DNA of 64,000 nucleotides from Agromyces luteolus (GTDB lineage Bacteria; Actinomycetota; Actinomycetes; Actinomycetales; Microbacteriaceae). Position numbers and translations under genes: made by a program. Positions 8,739-19,878 of this stretch are shown one piece after another. A model generated the notes under the pieces. The model searched no databases, had not been told where the DNA came from, and saw only the letters and a list, made by a program, of their open reading frames with translations. Every line of letters begins with the position of its first letter. The first letter of the stretch is position 1. The DNA lies in assembly GCF_009729855.1 (NCBI RefSeq), contig NZ_WODA01000003.1, positions 1 through 64,000 of the forward strand. Reading direction: 5' to 3'.

Positions 8739-11432
8739 TCACTCCGCCGGACGCCGCCGTCGCCGGCGCCTCGCGCCGAGCCATCCGGTCGCCCTGCCCC
8801 ACGCCCACCAGGCGGCGAGGCCGACGGCGAACGAGGCGACGATCGCGAGCGGCGGCGACCACTCCTCGATGGGCGGGTACACCTGCCAGTGCGTCAGGTA
8901 GACGAACATCGAGGCGGATGCCACGGTGCCGAGCGCGCCGGCGAGCACGGCGGGCACCGGCAGGCTCGTCACCCAGATGAGCACGCCGAGGCCGACGATG
9001 ACGATCCCCTCGCGCACCGGGTCGCCGAAGAAGCCGGGCACCGTCGCGAGGACGATCGCGCTCGCGGCCGCCTTGCGCGGCAGCGTCGTCGAGCGGGCGA
9101 CGAGCCAGCCGAGCGCGATGAGCCACGCGATGGCGGGGAGCGCGTAGCGCATCGGCGACGAGGGCGTGATGCCGCCCGAGACGACGTAGCGCACGACGAG
9201 GGCGATGCCGAGGACGGCCAGCGCGAAGGCGAACGGGTGGCGCCGTTCCAGCCTCGTGACGCCGGGGACCGCGAAGAGCGCGGCGAGCCCGACGATCGAC
9301 CACACGAGCGTCTCGAGGAACCAGAACTGCCACTGCTCGCTCCACGCGGTCGCGCCGGGTACGAGCTGGTTCGACAGCAGCACCGTCGCGGGATCGTACG
9401 TCCGGGCGATGAGTGCGACGCCGCCGATCCAGAGCACGGCCGGCACCGCGATGAGCGTCGCGCTGCGGAGGAGGCCCCGCACGCGCCGGCGGCGCTCGGG
9501 GCGTTCGTCGCCGACCCCGCCTGCGGAACCGCCGAACCGGAATCGCGCGAGGTTGAAGCCGGCGACGGCGAGCAGCAGGTGCGCGCCGCCCTTCAGCTGC
9601 ACGACGTCGGCGTGCGTCGCGACGATGAGCAGGATCGCGACGGCGCGGAGCACCACGGAGGTCTCGAGCCGAGCGATGCGGCGACGCCGCGGGGCCGCGG
9701 GCGGGAGCGCGGCTCGCTGGGCGTGCGTCCGCGTCGGCTCGTCGCCCGGAGACGAGCCGAGCGCGTCGACGGCGGGTTCGGCGCTGAGCGCGGGCGGGGC
9801 GAACGAGCGGATGCTCCGGCTCGGCCAGTCGGCGGGCAACGCGCCGATGCGCTCCTCGAGGCGCAGCGCGAGCTCGACGTAGTTCAACGAGTCGCCGTCG
9901 AGCGAGGCGAAGCTGTCGTCCTCCGTCGCGTCCGGCCGGCCGAGGAGCTCGGCGTAGAGGTCGCGGAGCTCGGCGACCGAGGCGGCCGGTGTCGCGACCG
10001 GAGCGTCGGCCGGCGACGACGGAGCGGCCGGGGCATCCGTCGCCCGGAGCAGCGTCGCGTGGGCGCGGAGCGCCGCGTGGTCGGGCTTGCCGTTCGCGGT
10101 GCGCGGGAACTCGGCGAGCGCGTGCACGTCGAACGCGTGCACGGGCAGGCCCGTGTGCCGGGCCACCGCGTCGCGCGCCGCATCGACGAACCGGTCGTGC
10201 CGCACGAACCCGACGAGCCGCTCGTCCAGGGCGACGGCGCGCGCCTCGAGTCCGTCGGCGGCGAGGAGCCGCTCGATCCGGTCGAGGTCGAGGCGCAGCC
10301 CGAAGCTCTTGACGAATCGGCTCAGGCGCCCGGTGATCTCGAGCAGGCCGTCCTCGCGGCGGCGCGCCAGGTCGCCCGTCCGGAGCTCGGACAGCTCGGG
10401 GCCGCGGGCGAGGTCGGCCGGCGACTCGGCGTAGCCCATCATCACGTTGGGTCCGGAGTAGACGAGCTCCCCCTCCCCGGCAGCCGCGCCGGGGACGGAC
10501 TCGTCGATGCGGAACGAACCGCCCGGGATCGGCACGCCGATGGCGCCCGCGGCCGTCTCGGCGAGCGCCGGCGGCAGGTACGCCATGCGGGCGGTCGCCT
10601 CGGTCTGGCCGTACATGACGTAGAGGTCGAAGCCGCGCTCCCGCCCGAAGCGGGCGAGGGCGCGCACCTTCTCGGGCGCGAGGCGTCCGCCGGCCTGGGT
10701 GACGTACCTGAGGTCCGGCAGGTCGCGGCGAGCGAAGTCGGTGGACTCGAGCAGTTCGTACGTGTACGGGACGCCCGCGAACGAGGTCGCGCCGAGGCTC
10801 GCGAACTCGTCCCAGAACGCCGGCTCGACGATCGAGCGGTCGGTGAGCAGGAGGCTGGCGCCCGTGACGAGGTGGCTGTTCACGACCGAGAGGCCGTAGC
10901 AGTAGCCGAGCGGCAGCGTCGTCGCCGCCCGGTCGTCGGGGGTCAGGCCGAGGTAGTCGGCGATGCTCCGCGCGTTCGACGTCACGTTCGTCCGCGACAG
11001 CCGCACGAGCTTCGGCGAGCCCGTCGAGCCCGACGTGCTCGCGAGCAGCGCGAGCTCGGGATGGAACGCGCGGGGCGTCCCGCCGGAGGCATCCGTCAGC
11101 TCGAACCCGGCCTCGTCGGCGCGGACGACCACGTCGGGCGCGTACCGGCCGACGAGTGCGTCGAGCGCCGCGCCGTCGACGCCGGCCGGCAGGAGCAGCA
11201 CGGGGTGACCGCCCGCGAGCGCGGCGAGGTAGGTGACGACGGCCTCGACGGTGTTGCCGCCCGACAGGAACACGAGACGCCGGCCATCGCCGAGCGCCCT
11301 GCGTCGATCGTCGATCCGGTCGCGCAGCTCGGCGTAGTCGATCCGGGTCGTGGGCGTCACGAGCGCCGGGGCACCGGGGTCGCCGCCGAGCAGGTCGAGC
11401 GCGGGCTCGGTCCTGGTCAGCAGCATGGGCAT
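8739..11432 (-). CDS. Adenylation domain - carrier protein - membrane acyltransferase fusion
   Basis: This 897-residue protein joins three modules. Residues about 5-470 form an ANL adenylate-forming domain (LLASTSGSTGSPKLVRLSRTN phosphate loop, YGQTE, RTGDLARR, NGKPDH lysine). Residues about 500-575 form a carrier domain with DGDSLNYVE, whose serine would hold phosphopantetheine. From about residue 615 onward come some ten membrane helices resembling acyltransferase-3 proteins (RAVAILLIVATH, FVYLTHWQVYP). It should activate an acid, tether it and transfer it to a membrane or surface acceptor, a single-chain analogue of the Dlt logic. Substrate is unknown. ATG at 11432 and ATG at 11426 are both possible. 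An iron box lies 44 bases upstream. Confidence 0.85.
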   Translation of the reverse strand: MPMLLTRTEPALDLLGGDPGAPALVTPTTRIDYAELRDRIDDRRRALGDGRRLVFLSGGNTVEAVVTYLAALAGGHPVLLLPAGVDGAALDALVGRYAPDVVVRADEAGFELTDASGGTPRAFHPELALLASTSGSTGSPKLVRLSRTNVTSNARSIADYLGLTPDDRAATTLPLGYCYGLSVVNSHLVTGASLLLTDRSIVEPAFWDEFASLGATSFAGVPYTYELLESTDFARRDLPDLRYVTQAGGRLAPEKVRALARFGRERGFDLYVMYGQTEATARMAYLPPALAETAAGAIGVPIPGGSFRIDESVPGAAAGEGELVYSGPNVMMGYAESPADLARGPELSELRTGDLARRREDGLLEITGRLSRFVKSFGLRLDLDRIERLLAADGLEARAVALDERLVGFVRHDRFVDAARDAVARHTGLPVHAFDVHALAEFPRTANGKPDHAALRAHATLLRATDAPAAPSSPADAPVATPAASVAELRDLYAELLGRPDATEDDSFASLDGDSLNYVELALRLEERIGALPADWPSRSIRSFAPPALSAEPAVDALGSSPGDEPTRTHAQRAALPPAAPRRRRIARLETSVVLRAVAILLIVATHADVVQLKGGAHLLLAVAGFNLARFRFGGSAGGVGDERPERRRRVRGLLRSATLIAVPAVLWIGGVALIARTYDPATVLLSNQLVPGATAWSEQWQFWFLETLVWSIVGLAALFAVPGVTRLERRHPFAFALAVLGIALVVRYVVSGGITPSSPMRYALPAIAWLIALGWLVARSTTLPRKAAASAIVLATVPGFFGDPVREGIVIVGLGVLIWVTSLPVPAVLAGALGTVASASMFVYLTHWQVYPPIEEWSPPLAIVASFAVGLAAWWAWGRATGWLGARRRRRRRPAE

Positions 11433-11475
11433 GGCACCTGTCCGGTTGGGAGGGGTCGTGTCCGCCGGATCGACG

Positions 11476-11494
11476 GAAGGTTAGGCTTACCTTA
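11476..11494. promoter_or_regulatory. Iron box (DtxR/IdeR/DmdR-type operator)
   Basis: GAAGGTTAGGCTTACCTTA matches the actinobacterial iron-box consensus TTAGGTTAGGCTAACCTAA at 15 of 19 positions by direct comparison. It lies 44 bases upstream of the adenylation-acyltransferase gene, where a ferrous-iron-loaded repressor would block the promoter; a -10-like TAACCT is embedded in the minus strand of the box. The divergent MHS transporter starts 266 bases away and is less likely to be controlled by it. Confidence 0.75.
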
Positions 11495-11760: not shown

Positions 11761-13260
11761 ATGACCGCAACCCAGTCCCCCGCCGACGCCCCGGCCACGA
11801 CCCCCGCCGCGCCCGTGAACTCGCGCGGCCGGGTCGTCCTCGCCAGCCTCGTCGGCACGACGATCGAGTTCTACGACTTCTACGCGTACGCGACGGCCGC
11901 CGTCCTCGTGTTCCCGATCCTCTTCTTCCCCACCGGCAACCAGACCACGGCGCTCCTCGCCTCGTTCGGCGTCTTCGGCGCCGCGATGATCGCACGCCCG
12001 ATCGGCGCGATCGTGTTCGGCCACTTCGGCGACAAGCACGGCCGCAAGGCGACGCTCGTCGCGTCGCTGCTCGTCATGGGCATCGCGACGTTCCTCATCG
12101 GGCTCCTGCCGACGTTCGGGCAGATCGGCTGGTTCGCGGCGCTCATGCTCCTCGTGCTCCGCCTCGCGCAGGGCTTCGCGCTCGGCGGCGAGTGGTCGGG
12201 CGCGGCGCTCGTCGCGACCGAGAACGCCCCGGCCGGCAAGCGCGCCTGGTACGGCACGTTCCCGCAGCTCGGCGCACCGCTCGGCTTCATCATCGCCAAC
12301 GGCCTGTTCCTCGCGATCAACCTCGCGGCGCCCTCGCGCGAGTGGTTCTTCGAGTGGGGATGGCGCGTGCCGTTCCTCTTCTCGGCCGTCATGGTCGTCG
12401 TCGGCCTCTGGGTGCGCCTGCGGCTCGTCGAGTCGAGCGCCTTCACCAAGGCGAGCGAGAAGGGCGCCATCCGCAAGCTGCCGCTCGGCACGGTCTTCCG
12501 GCACAACTGGCGCGAGCTCGTCCTCGGGACGTTCTTCATGCTCGCCACCTACGTGCTCTTCTACCTGATGACGAACTTCACGCTCTCGTACGGCACGAAG
12601 GCCGCCGACCTCGAGACCGCGAGCGCGGCCGCGCAGGCCGCCGCAGAGGCATCCGGCACCGCGTTCGACGCGAGCGCCTTCGCCGCGCAGTTCTACCCGG
12701 GCCTCGGTTTCGGGTACGCCGACTTCGTGACCATGCAGATCATCGGCGTCGTGTTCTTCGGCGTCTTCACGCTGCTGTCCGGTCCGATCGCCGACTCCAT
12801 CGGCCGTCGGCGCCTGCTCATCTGGGTCACTTCGGCGATCATCCTGTTCGGCCTCACGTTCAACCTGTTCCTGATGCCGCAGCTCGACCCGAAGTTCACG
12901 GGCGCGCTCACGCAGGCGTTCCTCGTGTTCGGGTTCATGCTCATGGGCGCGACCTTCGGCCCGATGGGCGCGCTGCTGCCCGAGCTGTTCCCGACGAACG
13001 TGCGCTACACGGGATCGGCGATCGCCTACAACGTCGCCTCGATCCTCGGCGCCGCCGTCGCACCGCTCATCGCGGTCGCGCTGTGGGCGGCGGCCGGCGG
13101 CGAACCGTGGCCGGTCGGCATCTACCTCTCCGCGATGGGTGTGCTGACCCTCGTGGCGCTCCTCGTCTCGAAGGAGACGAAGGACGTCGACTACGAGGCC
13201 GCCGGCGTGCCGGCCGACGGTCGGCTCGCCGAGGGCGAGGCCGAGGCCGCGTCGCTCTAG
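11761..13260 (+). CDS. MHS-family (metabolite:H+ symporter) MFS transporter
   Basis: A 499-residue, 12-helix major facilitator of the MHS group (relatives include ShiA, KgtP and ProP). The IEFYDFYAYATAAVLVFP first helix, the FGHFGDKHGRKATLV loop between helices 2 and 3, LRLAQGFALGGEWSGAALVATENAP, and the late ELFPTNVRYTGSAIAYN segment are all characteristic. An insertion rich in Ala/Thr between helices 7 and 8 is usual for actinobacterial members. Substrate cannot be read from sequence; small carboxylates or aromatic acids such as shikimate are typical. The ATG at 11761 has only a weak GGAAG upstream. A strong hairpin terminator follows the stop. Confidence 0.9.
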   Translation: MTATQSPADAPATTPAAPVNSRGRVVLASLVGTTIEFYDFYAYATAAVLVFPILFFPTGNQTTALLASFGVFGAAMIARPIGAIVFGHFGDKHGRKATLVASLLVMGIATFLIGLLPTFGQIGWFAALMLLVLRLAQGFALGGEWSGAALVATENAPAGKRAWYGTFPQLGAPLGFIIANGLFLAINLAAPSREWFFEWGWRVPFLFSAVMVVVGLWVRLRLVESSAFTKASEKGAIRKLPLGTVFRHNWRELVLGTFFMLATYVLFYLMTNFTLSYGTKAADLETASAAAQAAAEASGTAFDASAFAAQFYPGLGFGYADFVTMQIIGVVFFGVFTLLSGPIADSIGRRRLLIWVTSAIILFGLTFNLFLMPQLDPKFTGALTQAFLVFGFMLMGATFGPMGALLPELFPTNVRYTGSAIAYNVASILGAAVAPLIAVALWAAAGGEPWPVGIYLSAMGVLTLVALLVSKETKDVDYEAAGVPADGRLAEGEAEAASL

Positions 13261-13465: not shown

Positions 13466-13891
13466 ATGAACATGACGATGGACATGATGAAGGGCGCCAT
13501 GTCGGCGTCGGACATGCCCATGAAGGACATGGACATGTCGATGATGCAGGAGTGTATGGAAGCCCTCTCCGCGTGCATGCAGGCGTGCCTCATGTGCGCC
13601 GACGCCGACGCGGGCGAGGGCATGGGCCGGTGCGCCGCGATGTGCGCGAACTGCGCGGACGTGTGCGACACGATGATGCGGATGATGCTCCGCACCACCG
13701 GCTACGACATGCAGGTCATGATGTCGATGATGGAGACCTGCGTCACGATGTGCCGCGCGTGCTCGGCCGAGTGCATGATGCACGCCGAGATGAGCGAGCA
13801 CTGCCGCATGTGCGCCATGGCGTGCGACCAGGCGGTCATGGCCATGGAGAAGATGATGGGCGCGATGAAGGGGATGATGCCGGCGAGCTGA
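13466..13891 (+). CDS. Met- and Cys-rich four-helix-bundle copper storage protein (Csp-like, DUF326)
   Basis: The 141-residue protein has, by my count, 15 Cys and 39 Met. The cysteines recur in CXXXC and CXXC spacings (residues 30, 37, 41, 44, 56, 60, 63, 67, 92, 96, 99, 103, 113, 116, 120), as in the copper storage proteins whose helices line a core with Cys thiolates binding many Cu(I) ions. The N-terminal 28 residues and the C-terminus are unusually Met-rich. There is no signal peptide, so it should be cytosolic like Csp3. AGGTG lies five bases before the ATG. It has its own upstream and downstream terminators, so it is monocistronic. Confidence 0.85.
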   Translation: MNMTMDMMKGAMSASDMPMKDMDMSMMQECMEALSACMQACLMCADADAGEGMGRCAAMCANCADVCDTMMRMMLRTTGYDMQVMMSMMETCVTMCRACSAECMMHAEMSEHCRMCAMACDQAVMAMEKMMGAMKGMMPAS

Positions 13892-14589: not shown

Positions 14590-16632
14590 ATGCCCCGTAT
14601 CCTCATCACCACGAACCACCTGCGCGAGATCAGGGGGTCCGAACTCGTCACGCTCGAACTCGCCGAGGAGTTCCTCCTCCGCGGCTGGCACGTCGACGTC
14701 TACACCAACCTCTTCCTCCCGCCGATGGCGGATCGCTTCGCCGCGCTGGCGCAGACGGGCGACCTCCGGGTGGCGGACGACCCGTACGACGACTTCGGCA
14801 TCGACTACGACCTGGTCTGGGTCCAGCACTCCCTGCTCCCGCCGTCCGTGATCCGTCGGCTGGCCGAGCGCGACGCCCGGGCCGCCGTCGTCTGGCACCA
14901 CATGTCGGCGATGGTCGAGATCGAGCTTCCGGTGCTCGCCGACATCGAGGACGCCTTCACCGACATCGAGTCCTACGTGTCGCAGCGGACGATGGAACTG
15001 CACCGCGAGTTCGGCATCACGACGCCCGGGATGCTCTTCCCGAACCCCGTCCCGCGTCGGTTCACCGAGTATGCGGTGGAGCCGCCGCGAGCCGCGGCGC
15101 CGGACGACGGGCCGCACCGCATCGCCGTGATCTCCAACCACCCGCCGCAGGAGGTCCTCGAGGCCGCGGCGCTCCTCGAGGGGGCCGGCGTCCTCGTCGA
15201 CGTCATCGGCGAGACGACCGAGGTCCGCGACGTCACGCCCGAGCTGATCGCGTCCTACGACGGCGTCATCACGATCGGCAAGACCGTGCAGTACGCGCTC
15301 TCCGTCGGCGTCCCCGCATACGTGTACGACCACTTCGGGGGCGACGGATGGCTCGACGCCGACTCCTTCGAGCGGGAGGCCCTGACCAACTTCAGCGGCC
15401 GGGCGACCCGACGCCGCCTCGAGGGTGCCGAGATCGCGCGGGAGGTGCGATCGGGCCACGCCGCGGCGCAGCGGTTCGTGCGCGACCGACTCGAATCGCA
15501 TCGCGAGCGGTTCGCCCTGCGACGACACGTCGACGACCTGCTCGCGCATCCCGCCGTCGCCCGGCCGCCGGCGAAGCACCTCTCGCCCGCCGAGTCCCGC
15601 AGGTGGCTCGCGCACACCGAGCTCGTCCGGGGCATGTACCGCACGACCGAGTACCTTCGCGACGAGGTCGCGCGCCTCACGATCGCTCACGCGGAGGCCA
15701 CGACGCCCGACGAGCCGAGCCCCGTTCCCGAGGAGGTCGCGGACGGCTCCGTGCACGTGCTCATCGCCGCCACGGGCGACGCTTCGCGGTCGGCCCGCGC
15801 CACGGCGAGCGTCCGCCAGCAGCGGCTCCGCCCGGACCACGTGACGACGTTCGAGGCCGGTGAACCGGGTGCGTCCGGCGGACGACTCCACGACGTCGAC
15901 CGATTCAACGACCTGGCGTCGACCGTGCCCGCCGAGTTCATCGCGATCCAGGACGGAACGGGGTCGTGGCATCCGGAGTTCCTCGGTGCCGCCGTGGCCC
16001 ACCTCGCGCTGCATCCGGAGCAGTCCGCGGTCGTCGCCCGCACGGCGCTGACCGTCGAGCGGACCCTCAACGGGCACCGCATCGAGCACGAGCACCGTTC
16101 GGCCCGCCCCGCGGTCGGCAGCCACCGCGAGACGATCGACGTCTCCGACCAGCTCGTCGAGAACCGCACGCCGTTCGCGGCGATGGTCTTCCGTCGCTCC
16201 GCGGCCGTGGCGGCGGGCATGCTCGACGCCGATCTCCGTCATGCCGCGGACTGGGACTTCGGGCTCCGCCTCCTCCACGTCGGGCCGATCGGCGTCCTGG
16301 ACGCGTCCAGCACGCTCGTCACCCTGCACACCCACGACCTCGCCGCCGAGGCCGCGAACCTCGGTCGGGCGCGCACCGAGCTCGCCGCGAAGGCCATGCG
16401 GCTCGACGGCGAGCGCCGACTCATGTACTCGGCCGTCCTCACCTCGCAGGCGGCGACCGCGAACATCACGCGTTCCGGCGACCTCGTGGGGCGGTTCGAC
16501 GAGCTCTCGCGGGCCCTGCACGCGCACGGCGCCGACGCGGTCGGCCTGGAGCTCCGCGTGCGCCGCTTCCTGCGCGCACTGCCCGCCCGGATGGCCAGGC
16601 GCATGCCGAGCACGAGAGGAGCCCGCCGATGA
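14590..16632 (+). CDS. Two-part glycosyltransferase for surface glycan
   Basis: A 680-residue soluble protein. The N-terminal 330 residues resemble GT-B/GT4-type glycosyltransferases (ILITTNHLREIRGSELVTLELAEEFLLRGWHVDVYTN, later GVITIGKTVQYALSVGVPAYVYDHFGGDGWL, a donor-site-like region). After a linker helix, residues about 410-620 look like a GT-A/GT2 domain (RFNDLASTVPAEFIAIQDGTGSWHPEFL, then DWDFGLRLLHVGPIGVLD). AGGAGA lies six bases before the ATG. Its stop overlaps the next start in ATGA, making it the first gene of a three-gene operon with a HAD-like protein and an OpgC-like acyltransferase. Sugar specificity is unknown. Confidence 0.75.
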   Translation: MPRILITTNHLREIRGSELVTLELAEEFLLRGWHVDVYTNLFLPPMADRFAALAQTGDLRVADDPYDDFGIDYDLVWVQHSLLPPSVIRRLAERDARAAVVWHHMSAMVEIELPVLADIEDAFTDIESYVSQRTMELHREFGITTPGMLFPNPVPRRFTEYAVEPPRAAAPDDGPHRIAVISNHPPQEVLEAAALLEGAGVLVDVIGETTEVRDVTPELIASYDGVITIGKTVQYALSVGVPAYVYDHFGGDGWLDADSFEREALTNFSGRATRRRLEGAEIAREVRSGHAAAQRFVRDRLESHRERFALRRHVDDLLAHPAVARPPAKHLSPAESRRWLAHTELVRGMYRTTEYLRDEVARLTIAHAEATTPDEPSPVPEEVADGSVHVLIAATGDASRSARATASVRQQRLRPDHVTTFEAGEPGASGGRLHDVDRFNDLASTVPAEFIAIQDGTGSWHPEFLGAAVAHLALHPEQSAVVARTALTVERTLNGHRIEHEHRSARPAVGSHRETIDVSDQLVENRTPFAAMVFRRSAAVAAGMLDADLRHAADWDFGLRLLHVGPIGVLDASSTLVTLHTHDLAAEAANLGRARTELAAKAMRLDGERRLMYSAVLTSQAATANITRSGDLVGRFDELSRALHAHGADAVGLELRVRRFLRALPARMARRMPSTRGARR

Positions 16633-18581
16633 GCGCGGCGCACCGCCCGACGACCGTCGTGGATGCCGAGATCGTCAGCTTCGACGTGTTCGACACGCTG
16701 CTCGATCGGGTGTTCCTCCGGCCGACGGACGTCTTCACCCTGACCCGGCACCGCGTCAACGCCGGCGGCGAGTTCTGGCTCGATGCCGGGTGGACGGATG
16801 CGCGCATCGCCGCCGAGGCCGCGTGCTACGCGACCCCCTCGATCGGTCCCGACATCACGATCGACGACATCTACGACCGTCTGGAGTCGACGCTCGGCAT
16901 GACGCCGGAGCTGCGGGCGGCGGTGCAGGCCGAGGAGATCGCGACCGAGCTCTCCGTGCTCGCACCCACCCGGCGCGGACGGGAGCTGTTCGATGCGGCC
17001 CGAGCGGCGGGCGCGCGCATCCTCATCGTGAGCGACATGTACCTGCCGCCGGACGCGATCGCCGAGGCGCTCACGGCCGGTGGATACTCGGGCTGGGACC
17101 GGCTCGTGGTCAGCGGATACGACCGGATCGCGAAGCACGACGGGACGGCGTTCCGGAAGCTCAGGGCCGAGTTCCCCGCGGAGCGGATCCTGCACGTCGG
17201 GGACAACGTCGTGAGCGATGTCGAGATGGCGCGGCGCGCCGGACTCGAGGCGCTGCACCTGCCGGGCGGTGCCGAACTCTGCCGCACCGTGGGCTCGGCC
17301 CACCCGTCGGAGGCGATCGGCCGCATCGCGGCCAACGAGCGGCACACGCACACCGAGTACGGCTGGAGCCTGATCGCGGGGCTCACCTCGCGGAACCGGG
17401 ATCGCCACGACGACGATGCCGCCGCGGAGCTCGGGTACGCCGTGCTGGGGCCCGTGCTCGTCGGCTTCACGCAGTGGCTGCACGCCGCGGCACGCGCGAG
17501 GGGCATCGACCGCCTCGCGTTCCTCGCGCGGGAGGGCAAGCTGCTCCGCGACGCGTACCGCGAACTGCTCGGCGACGACGCGCTGCGGAGCGACTACGTC
17601 TACGCATCGCGCCGCATGGTCAACCTCGCCGGCATCCGGACGCCCATCCGGCCCAGCGAGCTCGACTTCCTCGCCGCCACCGGCGCCCCGTTGCGCGTCG
17701 CCGAGTACGTCACCCGGTTCATCCCGGACATCGCTCCCGACCGCATCGACGCCGCCGCGCGATCGGTCGGGCTTCGGGCGGGCTCGGTCGTCGCGCCGGA
17801 GGAGGGTTCGCGGATGCGCCAGGTCTTCCGTGCGCTCGAGCCTGAGATCGTGGCCGCGGCGGGCCGTGAGCGCGGCCCGGTCATCGACTACCTGCGTTCG
17901 GTCGGACTGCACCGGCCGACGACGGCCGTCGTGGACGTCGGCTGGCAGGGCAGTATCCAGGCGTCGCTCCGGGCGATCCTCAACCCCGACCTCGAGGGGT
18001 TCTACTTCGGCATCCACCCGACCCCGAAGACCGTCGGAGCGGACTGGCTGCACGGGTTCGTCGACGGCCGGCAGGAGGCGGCGGCCGAGTGGCACCGCGA
18101 GTGCATCCTGCCCGGGATCGAGGTCGTCGAGCTGCTGTTCGGCAACCCCGTGGACGCGTCCGTCGCGACGGTCCGACGCGACGAGGACGGCGGATTCGCA
18201 CCCGTGTTCGGCGACGAGCGGATGCGTGACGCGGACGGTGCGCTCATCGCCACGGCCCAGCGAGCCGCCATGCGGTTCGTCCGGGACTTCCGGGAGGCAT
18301 CCTCGCTCATGCCCGCGGCGGTCTCCCAGCTCCCACTCGATGTCGCGCTCGCGTTCCTGGGCGAACTCGTGCTGCTTCCGACCGCCGAGCAGGCGCGCCT
18401 GCTCGGCGGGCTGATGCACGACAACTCGCTGGGCGTCACCGCCTCGCCGCTCGCGCTGCCCCGCCACGGCCGCCGCTACTACCGACTGCACCCGATGGCG
18501 ATGGAGCGGGAGCTCGATCGCGCCTGGTGGAAGGCGGGATTCCGGAAGAACGTCGAGTCCGGGCATGCCGCACGACGCTGA
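16629..18581 (+). CDS. HAD-superfamily protein of polysaccharide loci (COG5610-like)
   Basis: A 650-residue protein. The N-terminal part has the HAD nucleophile motif SFDVFDTLLDR near residue 18, motif II-like ILIVSDMYLPP, and motifs III-IV in AKHDGTAF and HVGDNVVSDVEMAR, so phosphatase chemistry is plausible. The following 400 residues, with FLAREGKLLRDAY and VDVGWQGSIQASL, match a domain seen in proteins encoded among glycosyltransferase genes. ATGA overlap with the preceding glycosyltransferase and a 17-base overlap with the next gene show tight coupling. A role in making or modifying a phosphorylated surface glycan is inferred from context. Confidence 0.75.
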   Translation: MSAAHRPTTVVDAEIVSFDVFDTLLDRVFLRPTDVFTLTRHRVNAGGEFWLDAGWTDARIAAEAACYATPSIGPDITIDDIYDRLESTLGMTPELRAAVQAEEIATELSVLAPTRRGRELFDAARAAGARILIVSDMYLPPDAIAEALTAGGYSGWDRLVVSGYDRIAKHDGTAFRKLRAEFPAERILHVGDNVVSDVEMARRAGLEALHLPGGAELCRTVGSAHPSEAIGRIAANERHTHTEYGWSLIAGLTSRNRDRHDDDAAAELGYAVLGPVLVGFTQWLHAAARARGIDRLAFLAREGKLLRDAYRELLGDDALRSDYVYASRRMVNLAGIRTPIRPSELDFLAATGAPLRVAEYVTRFIPDIAPDRIDAAARSVGLRAGSVVAPEEGSRMRQVFRALEPEIVAAAGRERGPVIDYLRSVGLHRPTTAVVDVGWQGSIQASLRAILNPDLEGFYFGIHPTPKTVGADWLHGFVDGRQEAAAEWHRECILPGIEVVELLFGNPVDASVATVRRDEDGGFAPVFGDERMRDADGALIATAQRAAMRFVRDFREASSLMPAAVSQLPLDVALAFLGELVLLPTAEQARLLGGLMHDNSLGVTASPLALPRHGRRYYRLHPMAMERELDRAWWKAGFRKNVESGHAARR

Positions 18582-19878
18582 CGCGTCGGCGTCGGCGTCG
18601 ACGTCGGGCCGGGAGACCCCGCGCCGCGCGCGGATCGACGCGTTCGACCACCTGCGCGGCTACTTCGTCGCGCTGATCATCGTGACGCACCTCTACCTGT
18701 CGCCCAACCTGATCGAGGTCGTGACCGGGCGCGGCGCGTTGCCCGCATCGGCGGCCGAGGGCTTCTGCGCGATCTCGGGCATCGTGATGGGATACGTGTT
18801 CCTCCCGCGGGTGCGTCGCGACGGCCTCCGCCCGGTGACGATCCGCTTGGTCCGCCGCGCGCTCATGATCTACCTGGCAGCGGTCGCGCTCACCGGCATC
18901 CGTCTCATGTTCGCGGCGCGCGAGGGCACCGCGGTGGATGCCGGCACCGTCGTGGAGGCCGTCACGCTCCGGACCGCCGCCGGGGTCGAGCCGGACTTCC
19001 TCGCGCTCTACGCACTCGTCGTCCTCGGTTCGCCGCTGGTGCTCTGGGCCGCCGCCCACCGCAGGGAGTGGATCGCGATCGCGCTCACCGGCGTGACGTG
19101 GCTGATCGCGCAGTTCGCCCCGGCACTCGACGACGCCGACGCGATGCGCCTCAGCTGGTCGTTCCTGTTCGTGATGGGGGTGACGATCGGATGCCGCTGG
19201 CCGGAACTGGCACGGGCGTGGCGTCGCCTGCCCGCGCGCGCGCGATCGTGGATCGCCACCGCGCTCGTCGTCGGGTTCGTGGCATCCGCGCTGCTGGCGG
19301 AGTTCCTGATCTTCTGGAACCACCACCTGCTCGTCGCCGCCGCCGGCGCCGACGGTCCGGCGCTCGACGCCATGCGCGGGATCGAGGCGCGGTTCCTCGC
19401 CGAGTGGACCTGGTTCGGCCCGCTCCAGGACAAGGCGAGCCTGGCTCCGTTCCGACTCGTGATCGGCACCCTCTGGTTCGCCGCACTGTTCCTGGTGTTC
19501 CGACGCGTCGGGCCGAGGCTCGATCGTGCGCTCGGCGGGATGCTGACGACCTTCGGGCGCAACTCGCTGGAGGCGTACGTCGCGCATCGGCTCGTGATCG
19601 AACTGGTCATCGCGCCGACGATCTGGGTCCGGATCGCCGAGCGGGACGACATCCTCCTGAACACGGCCGTCGTGATCGCGACCGAGGTGGTCGTCCTCGT
19701 GAGCGTCCGAGCGTGGCTGGCGGTTCGCGCTCGGCCGGCCGTGCGGGCCGCTCGCCGGGCGGGCACCGCCCGCGATCGACGCGACGACTCCTCCGAGCCG
19801 GGCCGTGCGGGCTCGACCGCGTCGCCGGCGACCATGGCTCCGTTCGCGGTCGTGGAATCCACGACCGTCGTACGATGA
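18565..19878 (+). CDS. OpgC-like integral membrane acyltransferase
   Basis: The 437-residue protein has about ten membrane helices and the features of OpgC and acyltransferase-3-like proteins. These include RIDAFDHLRGYFVALIIVTHLY near the start (with the conserved Arg and His), EGFCAISGIVMGY in the second helix, and FGRNSLEAYVAHRLVIE late in the chain. OpgC proteins succinylate periplasmic glucans; here the acceptor is probably the glycan made by the upstream genes. The start overlaps the HAD gene by 17 bases. The basic, Ser/Thr-rich C-terminus contains the promoter of the next gene, psuG. Exact acyl donor is unknown. Confidence 0.8.
   Translation: MPHDADASASASTSGRETPRRARIDAFDHLRGYFVALIIVTHLYLSPNLIEVVTGRGALPASAAEGFCAISGIVMGYVFLPRVRRDGLRPVTIRLVRRALMIYLAAVALTGIRLMFAAREGTAVDAGTVVEAVTLRTAAGVEPDFLALYALVVLGSPLVLWAAAHRREWIAIALTGVTWLIAQFAPALDDADAMRLSWSFLFVMGVTIGCRWPELARAWRRLPARARSWIATALVVGFVASALLAEFLIFWNHHLLVAAAGADGPALDAMRGIEARFLAEWTWFGPLQDKASLAPFRLVIGTLWFAALFLVFRRVGPRLDRALGGMLTTFGRNSLEAYVAHRLVIELVIAPTIWVRIAERDDILLNTAVVIATEVVVLVSVRAWLAVRARPAVRAARRAGTARDRRDDSSEPGRAGSTASPATMAPFAVVESTTVVR
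19871..19876 (+). promoter_or_regulatory. -10 element of leaderless psuG promoter
   Basis: TACGAT is followed by exactly six bases and the psuG ATG, the arrangement known from leaderless actinobacterial transcripts. A 7-bp hairpin, GTCGTGG-AAT-CCACGAC at 19849-19865, lies just upstream inside the end of the OpgC-like gene. Confidence 0.65.

Follow-up and report, generated by a model that had tools for sequence, protein, structure and literature searches.

A predicted iron-regulated fusion of adenylation, carrier, and acyltransferase-3 domains that accompanies FbpA-type ferric-iron transport proteins in Actinobacteria

Domain architecture and distribution

We analyzed a stretch of 64,000 nucleotides from Agromyces luteolus (contig NZ_WODA01000003.1, positions 1 to 64,000; here, the window), in which a single minus-strand open reading frame encodes an 897-aa protein, P0001, that combines an adenylation domain, a carrier domain, and an acyltransferase-3 membrane domain (hence, A-T-AT3). 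The features of this locus are as follows.

8739..11432, minus strand: whole A-T-AT3 gene (P0001), 897 aa, delimited by its open reading frame and Pfam matches
10062..11381, minus strand: adenylation (ANL) domain, residues about 18 to 457 (PF00501; an NCBIfam stretch reaches residue 457)
9843..9971, minus strand: carrier (PP-binding) domain, residues 488 to 530 (PF00550), with phosphopantetheine-type Ser515
8814..9653, minus strand: AT3/TmAT (transmembrane acyltransferase) domain, residues 594 to 873, with R596-x10-H607
11476..11494, minus strand: predicted iron box of the DtxR/IdeR type (15/19 match to the consensus), separated from the ATG by 43 bp

The initial annotation of this DNA, made from its letters alone, had proposed a single-chain adenylation, carrier, and AT3-like membrane protein, and all three domains indeed score above the curated Pfam cutoffs: AMP-binding at 138.9 bits (residues 18 to 334; cutoff, 29.9), PP-binding at 29.2 bits (residues 488 to 530; cutoff, 20.8), and Acyl_transf_3 at 41.3 bits (residues 594 to 873; cutoff, 31). 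The A10-type, catalytic-type Lys449 of the ANL domain, Ser515 of the carrier, and Arg596 and His607 of the membrane domain are invariant in all 42 aligned rows.

The gene is present in 19 of 60 genomes of the order; by our own gene calls, 17 of these copies are in one piece, one lies at a contig end (G014), and one is broken (G006). In this last copy (L037; G006:C1:225278-227922), the gene is split into two frames at residues 401/402 and adjoins an iron-boxed FbpABC set. A scan of named genomes recovered at least 80 loci, the lower-ranking of which are mostly stand-alone ligases, and locus counts beyond the order sample refer to the matches listed in that scan. The actinobacterial loci listed come from Agromyces, Arthrobacter, Streptomyces, Nocardioides, Mycolicibacterium, Lentzea, Pedococcus, and others, and the alphaproteobacterial ones include Rhizobium, Sinorhizobium, and Mesorhizobium. 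Two loci are adenylation fragments at contig ends (L063 and L077), two with no AT3 profile match (L074 and L078) were excluded from the 16 alphaproteobacteria considered below, and the counts include loci interrupted by a contig end.

Conserved iron operators

The iron box, GAAGGTTAGGCTTACCTTA at positions 11476 to 11494, was scored against a 19-mer that we take to be the DtxR/IdeR consensus. The 15/19 match noted in the initial annotation stands, with the distance to the ATG corrected from 44 to 43 bases. In the rest of the window, no other site scores 13/19 or more. A strict scan of the 3.9-Mb genome with TWAGGTWAGSCTWACCTWA, allowing up to three mismatches, gave four sites, versus none for the reversed control pattern; the window box has one mismatch, equal to the best of the other three sites, and its score against the plain 19-mer consensus is 15, versus 17, 16, and 15 for the others. 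Those three boxes lie next to two siderophore uptake loci of the FecBCD type that also encode siderophore-interacting proteins. The FbpABC genes of this genome are preceded at 58 bp by a weaker box (15/19) that falls outside the strict-scan list, and two DtxR-family regulators are encoded in this genome.

To survey the relatives, we used 43 full-length actinobacterial loci, that of the window included, leaving out L037 (broken) and L094 (truncated); gene calls were made by a simple method of our own, and nine loci that it missed (L041, L044, L045, L050, L051, L055, L058, L065, and L070) were tallied separately. A box of at least 14/19 lies within 300 bp of the gene in 34 of the 43 loci and in front of a same-strand run of genes in 6 more, leaving L032, L054, and L105 (13/19) without one. 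Among the nine added loci, the box is directly upstream in three, ahead of a same-strand binding-protein gene in three, and absent at this threshold from L044, L051, and L065 (13/19). Rather than lacking iron boxes, a finding that, together with iron-independent expression, the initial annotation had named as fatal to its proposal, the homologs carry them directly upstream or ahead of the apparent operon in 46 of 52 actinobacterial loci, the window's included. By comparison, 44 of 1,479 other genes in loci L021 to L118 reach 14/19, and many of these share the box of the A-T-AT3 gene or are themselves ferric transporter genes. We reject a chance origin of the window box, which is unique in the window, is one of four strict genome sites versus none for the reversed pattern, and is conserved in relatives.

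No DtxR box was seen in the 16 alphaproteobacterial relatives. The pattern TGA-N9-TCA, given as the RirA motif in a passage of PMC8822346, is found no more than 120 bp from the start in 9 of these 16, versus 13 of 255 other genes; all nine belong to the Rhizobiales, which account for ten of the 16. We regard this as support rather than proof because the nine are akin, the motif overlaps the TTGAC promoter element, and a second motif was also tried. An ICE-type (Irr) motif, searched for as one pattern in the alphaproteobacterial promoters, was not found. With boxes conserved in Actinobacteria and a RirA-type motif in Rhizobiales, the iron control proposed in the initial annotation is borne out at the sequence level, and the A-T-AT3 gene is likely to be under an iron-starvation switch.

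Association with the FbpABC ferric transporter

The link to FbpABC was absent from the initial annotation and was revealed only by the relatives. In a sample of 246 genomes of the class (43 carriers of the A-T-AT3 gene and 203 noncarriers), an FbpA-type ferric-iron binding protein, with the ferric type assigned by sequence similarity, is found in 43/43 carriers versus 29/203 noncarriers. Four genomes (G124, G137, G168, and G194), whose hits were judged from frame length and the range matched to cover adenylation only, were dropped from an original 47 carriers and entered as noncarriers, while some of the 43 (e.g., G061, G099, G220, and G282) were judged to be full length from their frames, with their AT3 part not listed at 1e-50. 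The same co-occurrence holds by genus (19/19 versus 17/76) and within the window's own genus in the order sample (13/13 versus 4/24); Fisher values overstate independence because the genomes are related, a concern that the genus and within-genus counts answer in part. In 34 of the 43 carriers, the A-T-AT3 and binding-protein genes lie within 8 kb of each other, in four arrangements.

Within three genes of the A-T-AT3 gene, 21 of the 43 actinobacterial loci encode a permease together with a binding lipoprotein (20 of them the ATPase too), and these are upstream on the same strand in 9, divergent in 7, and convergent in 5. The nine added loci contribute 5 more with both components nearby, so that the gene stands beside a ferric transporter in 26 of 52 actinobacterial loci, the window genome not being one of them. 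The best PDB matches of the neighboring lipoprotein are ferric-binding proteins, and the transporter linked to the gene belongs to the ferric-ion FbpA type rather than to the siderophore type represented by PF01497. The listing of neighbors across Actinobacteria, which the initial annotation had suggested as a check, finds a ferric ABC transporter beside the gene in many relatives. The binding protein is 50 to 74% identical to the query in 26 carriers and 33 to 41% identical in 17, the window genome included; the corresponding numbers of noncarriers are 3 and 26. The window genome's own protein, of the 33 to 41% type, still has a ferric-binding protein as its best PDB match. At L070, which has a 15/19 box upstream of its A-T-AT3 gene, a weak FbpA-like protein (15242 to 16159, minus strand; 27% identity) is encoded about 3 kb past the A-T-AT3 gene, without a recognized permease.

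The adenylation and carrier domains

Foldseek matches the adenylation domain of P0001 to the EntF, LgrA, HitB, and DltA folds. The carrier is less well scored in the alphaproteobacterial relatives, with PF00550 under its cutoff in L110 and not listed in L068, and the serine is kept. Against the NCBIfam DltA equivalog, P0001 scores 61.1 bits (cutoff, 476). In amino-acid-activating adenylation domains, the Asp of the A4 motif holds the substrate amino group; in an HMMER alignment, this Asp of LgrA falls on Gly180, which is invariant in 42 rows. The Dlt-type amino acid load that the initial annotation had entertained is unlikely for this reason, and the loaded acid is probably a small carboxylic acid rather than an alpha-amino acid. 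The binding pocket, proposed there as a guide to specificity, yields this absence of an Asp at the amino position and nothing further on the acid. A PF01648 search of the genome found one phosphopantetheinyl transferase, an AcpS-sized protein of 138 aa (G000:C15:29539-29787; L165), which may activate the P0001 carrier.

The membrane domain

The R-x10-H motif, described for AT3 enzymes in a passage of PMC9833829, is present in the first membrane helix as R596 and H607 and is kept in 41/41 rows of alignment A3 and 42/42 of A2. An RxxR motif (R649-R652), located where membrane helix 3 begins, occurs in 27 of 41 rows, P0001 included, and is missing from 14. Of three relatives scanned for Acyl_transf_3, L110 passes (38.0 bits), while L052 (26.0) and L068 (20.2) fall below the cutoff. 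Foldseek alone returned no relative of the AT3 domain of P0001; its membrane helix bundle matches HGSNAT-type transmembrane acyltransferases, and Pfam gave no MBOAT family match in P0001 at E ≤ 1. The membrane part accordingly resembles HGSNAT-type acyltransferases and not DltB. Together, the family match and the acyltransferase fold uphold the assignment in the initial annotation, and the domain did not prove unrelated to acyltransferases. Its AT3 identity suggests that it would transfer an acyl group to an extracytoplasmic acceptor. Membership in the Dlt D-alanylation system is rejected on the DltA score below cutoff, the missing A4 Asp, and a membrane part of the HGSNAT rather than the MBOAT type.

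Neighboring genes in the window

The A-T-AT3 gene is flanked by riboflavin genes on one side and on the other by a divergent transporter gene:

11761..13260, plus strand: MFS/MHS-type transporter, 499 aa, starting 266 bp from the iron box of the A-T-AT3 gene

This transporter adjoins the gene in 3 of 18 loci (L021, L023, and L025); it is a possible second target of the box rather than a conserved partner and could supply the acid. Beyond it lies a plus-strand gene (13466 to 13891) for a Met- and Cys-rich protein of 141 aa with no Pfam match, presumably a four-helix copper-binding protein, with relatives in L022, L023, and L025. Three consecutive plus-strand genes (14590 to 19878) encode a 680-aa protein with no Pfam match, a 650-aa HAD-domain protein, and a membrane protein of OpgC_C, another family of the acyltransferase-3 clan. 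In agreement with the initial annotation, Pfam scans of 13 of the 14 other genes called between positions 1 and 19878, all but the partial gene at 1 to 471, found no siderophore synthetase or iron transporter, five of the 13 being without a match.

Proposed function and alternatives

We assign the enzyme to ferric uptake because of its iron operators in two phyla and, in Actinobacteria, its constant company with FbpA-type proteins. As the genome (G000) has no match for the nonribosomal peptide synthetase (NRPS) condensation domain (PF00668) or for IucA/IucC (PF04183), the simplest function is the making of an outward product that assists the delivery of Fe(III) to FbpA. We propose, with about even confidence, that P0001 is a transmembrane acyltransferase that loads itself, belongs to the ferric-uptake regulon, works with FbpABC, and has as its likely product a weak outward Fe(III) ligand. 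Under iron starvation, DtxR/IdeR would leave the box and the protein would be made; the adenylation domain would adenylate a small carboxylic acid and load it onto the phosphopantetheine of the fused carrier, which would offer the thioester where the AT3/TmAT domain opens to the cytoplasm, in the usual place of acyl-CoA. The membrane domain would then hand the acyl group to an acceptor at the outer face, and the FbpA lipoprotein would take iron from the product, which could be an envelope component bearing the acyl group or a small molecule that is released. More tentatively, this could constitute a third, non-NRPS route to iron ligands, also distinct from NRPS-independent siderophore (NIS) synthesis, in which one membrane protein activates and carries an acid and esterifies or amidates an outer-face acceptor, giving an Fe(III) trap, bound to the surface or shed, to feed FbpABC, under DtxR-type control in Actinobacteria and RirA-type control in Rhizobiales.

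Several points weigh against this proposal. We infer the acid, the acceptor, the direction of transfer, and the binding of iron by the product. The pocket residues are nearly identical to those of stand-alone ligases from ACP (acyl carrier protein)-SDR-ligase-LuxE-LuxC gene sets, which argues for a common small acid, not a dedicated chelator, and the sole phosphopantetheinyl transferase found is AcpS-sized. The binding protein is distant or on another contig in nine of the 43 carriers, among them the window genome, and the split into close and distant types indicates that the partner is not one uniform protein. FbpABC is adjacent in none of the 16 alphaproteobacterial loci; a ferric-type substrate-binding protein is present in 12 of these 16 genomes (about 60% identity in 4), a sample without controls.

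The main rival, which we judge possible though doubtful, is envelope remodeling, in which a wall glycan or lipid would be acylated under iron starvation to alter charge or permeability or to spare energy, sharing regulation and gain and loss with FbpABC and producing no ligand. According to passages of PMC9558356, AT3 enzymes mostly acylate extracytoplasmic glycans, and an AT3 enzyme of Acinetobacter baumannii, AimS, is induced by iron limitation and has effects independent of metal content, as stated in part of PMC13345540; this last point also counts against a ligand. The same-pocket ligases, too, belong to LuxE/LuxC sets of a kind reported in Aeromonas flagellin glycosylation islands (in a passage of PMC7874193), and the Rhizobiales have the iron motif without an adjacent transporter. 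What envelope remodeling does not readily explain is the FbpA-type protein in all 43 carriers and the repeated FbpABC neighborhood.

Siderophore tailoring, in which the AT3 part would act at the membrane to acylate or export a small siderophore that is either produced elsewhere or foreign and captured, is possible but weaker, and we consider it improbable. It would fit the other three strict boxes, which flank genes for FecCD, siderophore-binding, and siderophore-interacting proteins, and the acylation of small macrolides by some AT3 enzymes (a passage of PMC9558356). However, the finishing of a siderophore, as the initial annotation had suggested, is less likely in this organism because neither an NRPS condensation domain nor IucA/IucC was found in its genome; among the order genomes, IucA/IucC occurs in 1/19 carriers versus 8/41 noncarriers, and the linked transporter is not of the PF01497 type. 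A three-family search of the window genome for siderophore synthesis genes gave only partial PF13434 matches, four of them over the cutoff, in frames of 447 to 519 aa. Control of the divergent MFS transporter alone, leaving the A-T-AT3 gene free of iron control, is suggested by the 266 bp between that gene's start and the box and is rejected as very improbable, as the transporter is away in 15 of 18 loci with boxes remaining and 43 bp separate the box from the start of the A-T-AT3 gene.

Comparison with known systems

Like the AT3/TmAT enzymes OafB, OatA, HGSNAT, and GWT1, P0001 has PF01757, R-x10-H, and an HGSNAT-matching helix bundle; their favored donor is acyl-CoA, whereas P0001 has adenylation and carrier domains fused in front and, if the proposal holds, would be an AT3 enzyme fed by a built-in carrier. 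The AT3 fusions named in passages of PMC9558356 and PMC12423673 are to SGNH, serine/alanine racemase, and NRF domains. Our search of open papers, covering titles and the openings of abstracts, found no mention of the A-T-AT3 architecture with FbpABC or an iron box.

D-alanylation by DltA, DltC, and DltB proceeds through adenylation, a carrier, and membrane transfer, a logic that P0001 has in common; it differs in being one chain with a TmAT-like rather than MBOAT membrane part, in lacking the amino acid Asp, and in its predicted iron control. DltB/MBOAT is structurally distinct from TmAT, as stated in a passage of PMC12423673. AimS, like P0001, is an AT3 enzyme, and it is induced by iron limitation, but the part of PMC13345540 covered here describes it as an AT3 acyltransferase only and mentions no adenylation or carrier domain or FbpABC link.

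Stand-alone ACP ligases of LuxE/LuxC sets (e.g., Aeromonas FGI group II orf3) are 36 to 49% identical in the adenylation domain and have nearly the same pocket; unlike P0001, they have a separate ACP, reductase partners, and no AT3 profile match, and none reached 14/19 in the box scan. In eight such loci (L088, L090, L093, L101, L103, L104, L116, and L118), from several phyla, the ligase sits in a recurring LuxE/LuxC set that usually also includes an SDR reductase and a small ACP-like protein, LuxE/LuxC being Pfam confirmed in L090, L101, L116, and L118.

FbpABC, like SfuABC and HitABC, shares regulon and neighborhood with the P0001 relatives as a partner and not a homolog. It imports ferric iron, but it is not evident how Fe(III) is delivered to FbpA in a bacterium with no recognized siderophore pathway. 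An enzyme that accompanies FbpA-type proteins in all carriers examined and shares their iron switch makes this question directly testable, and the A-T-AT3 gene hints at an unrecognized step in iron gathering by some bacteria.
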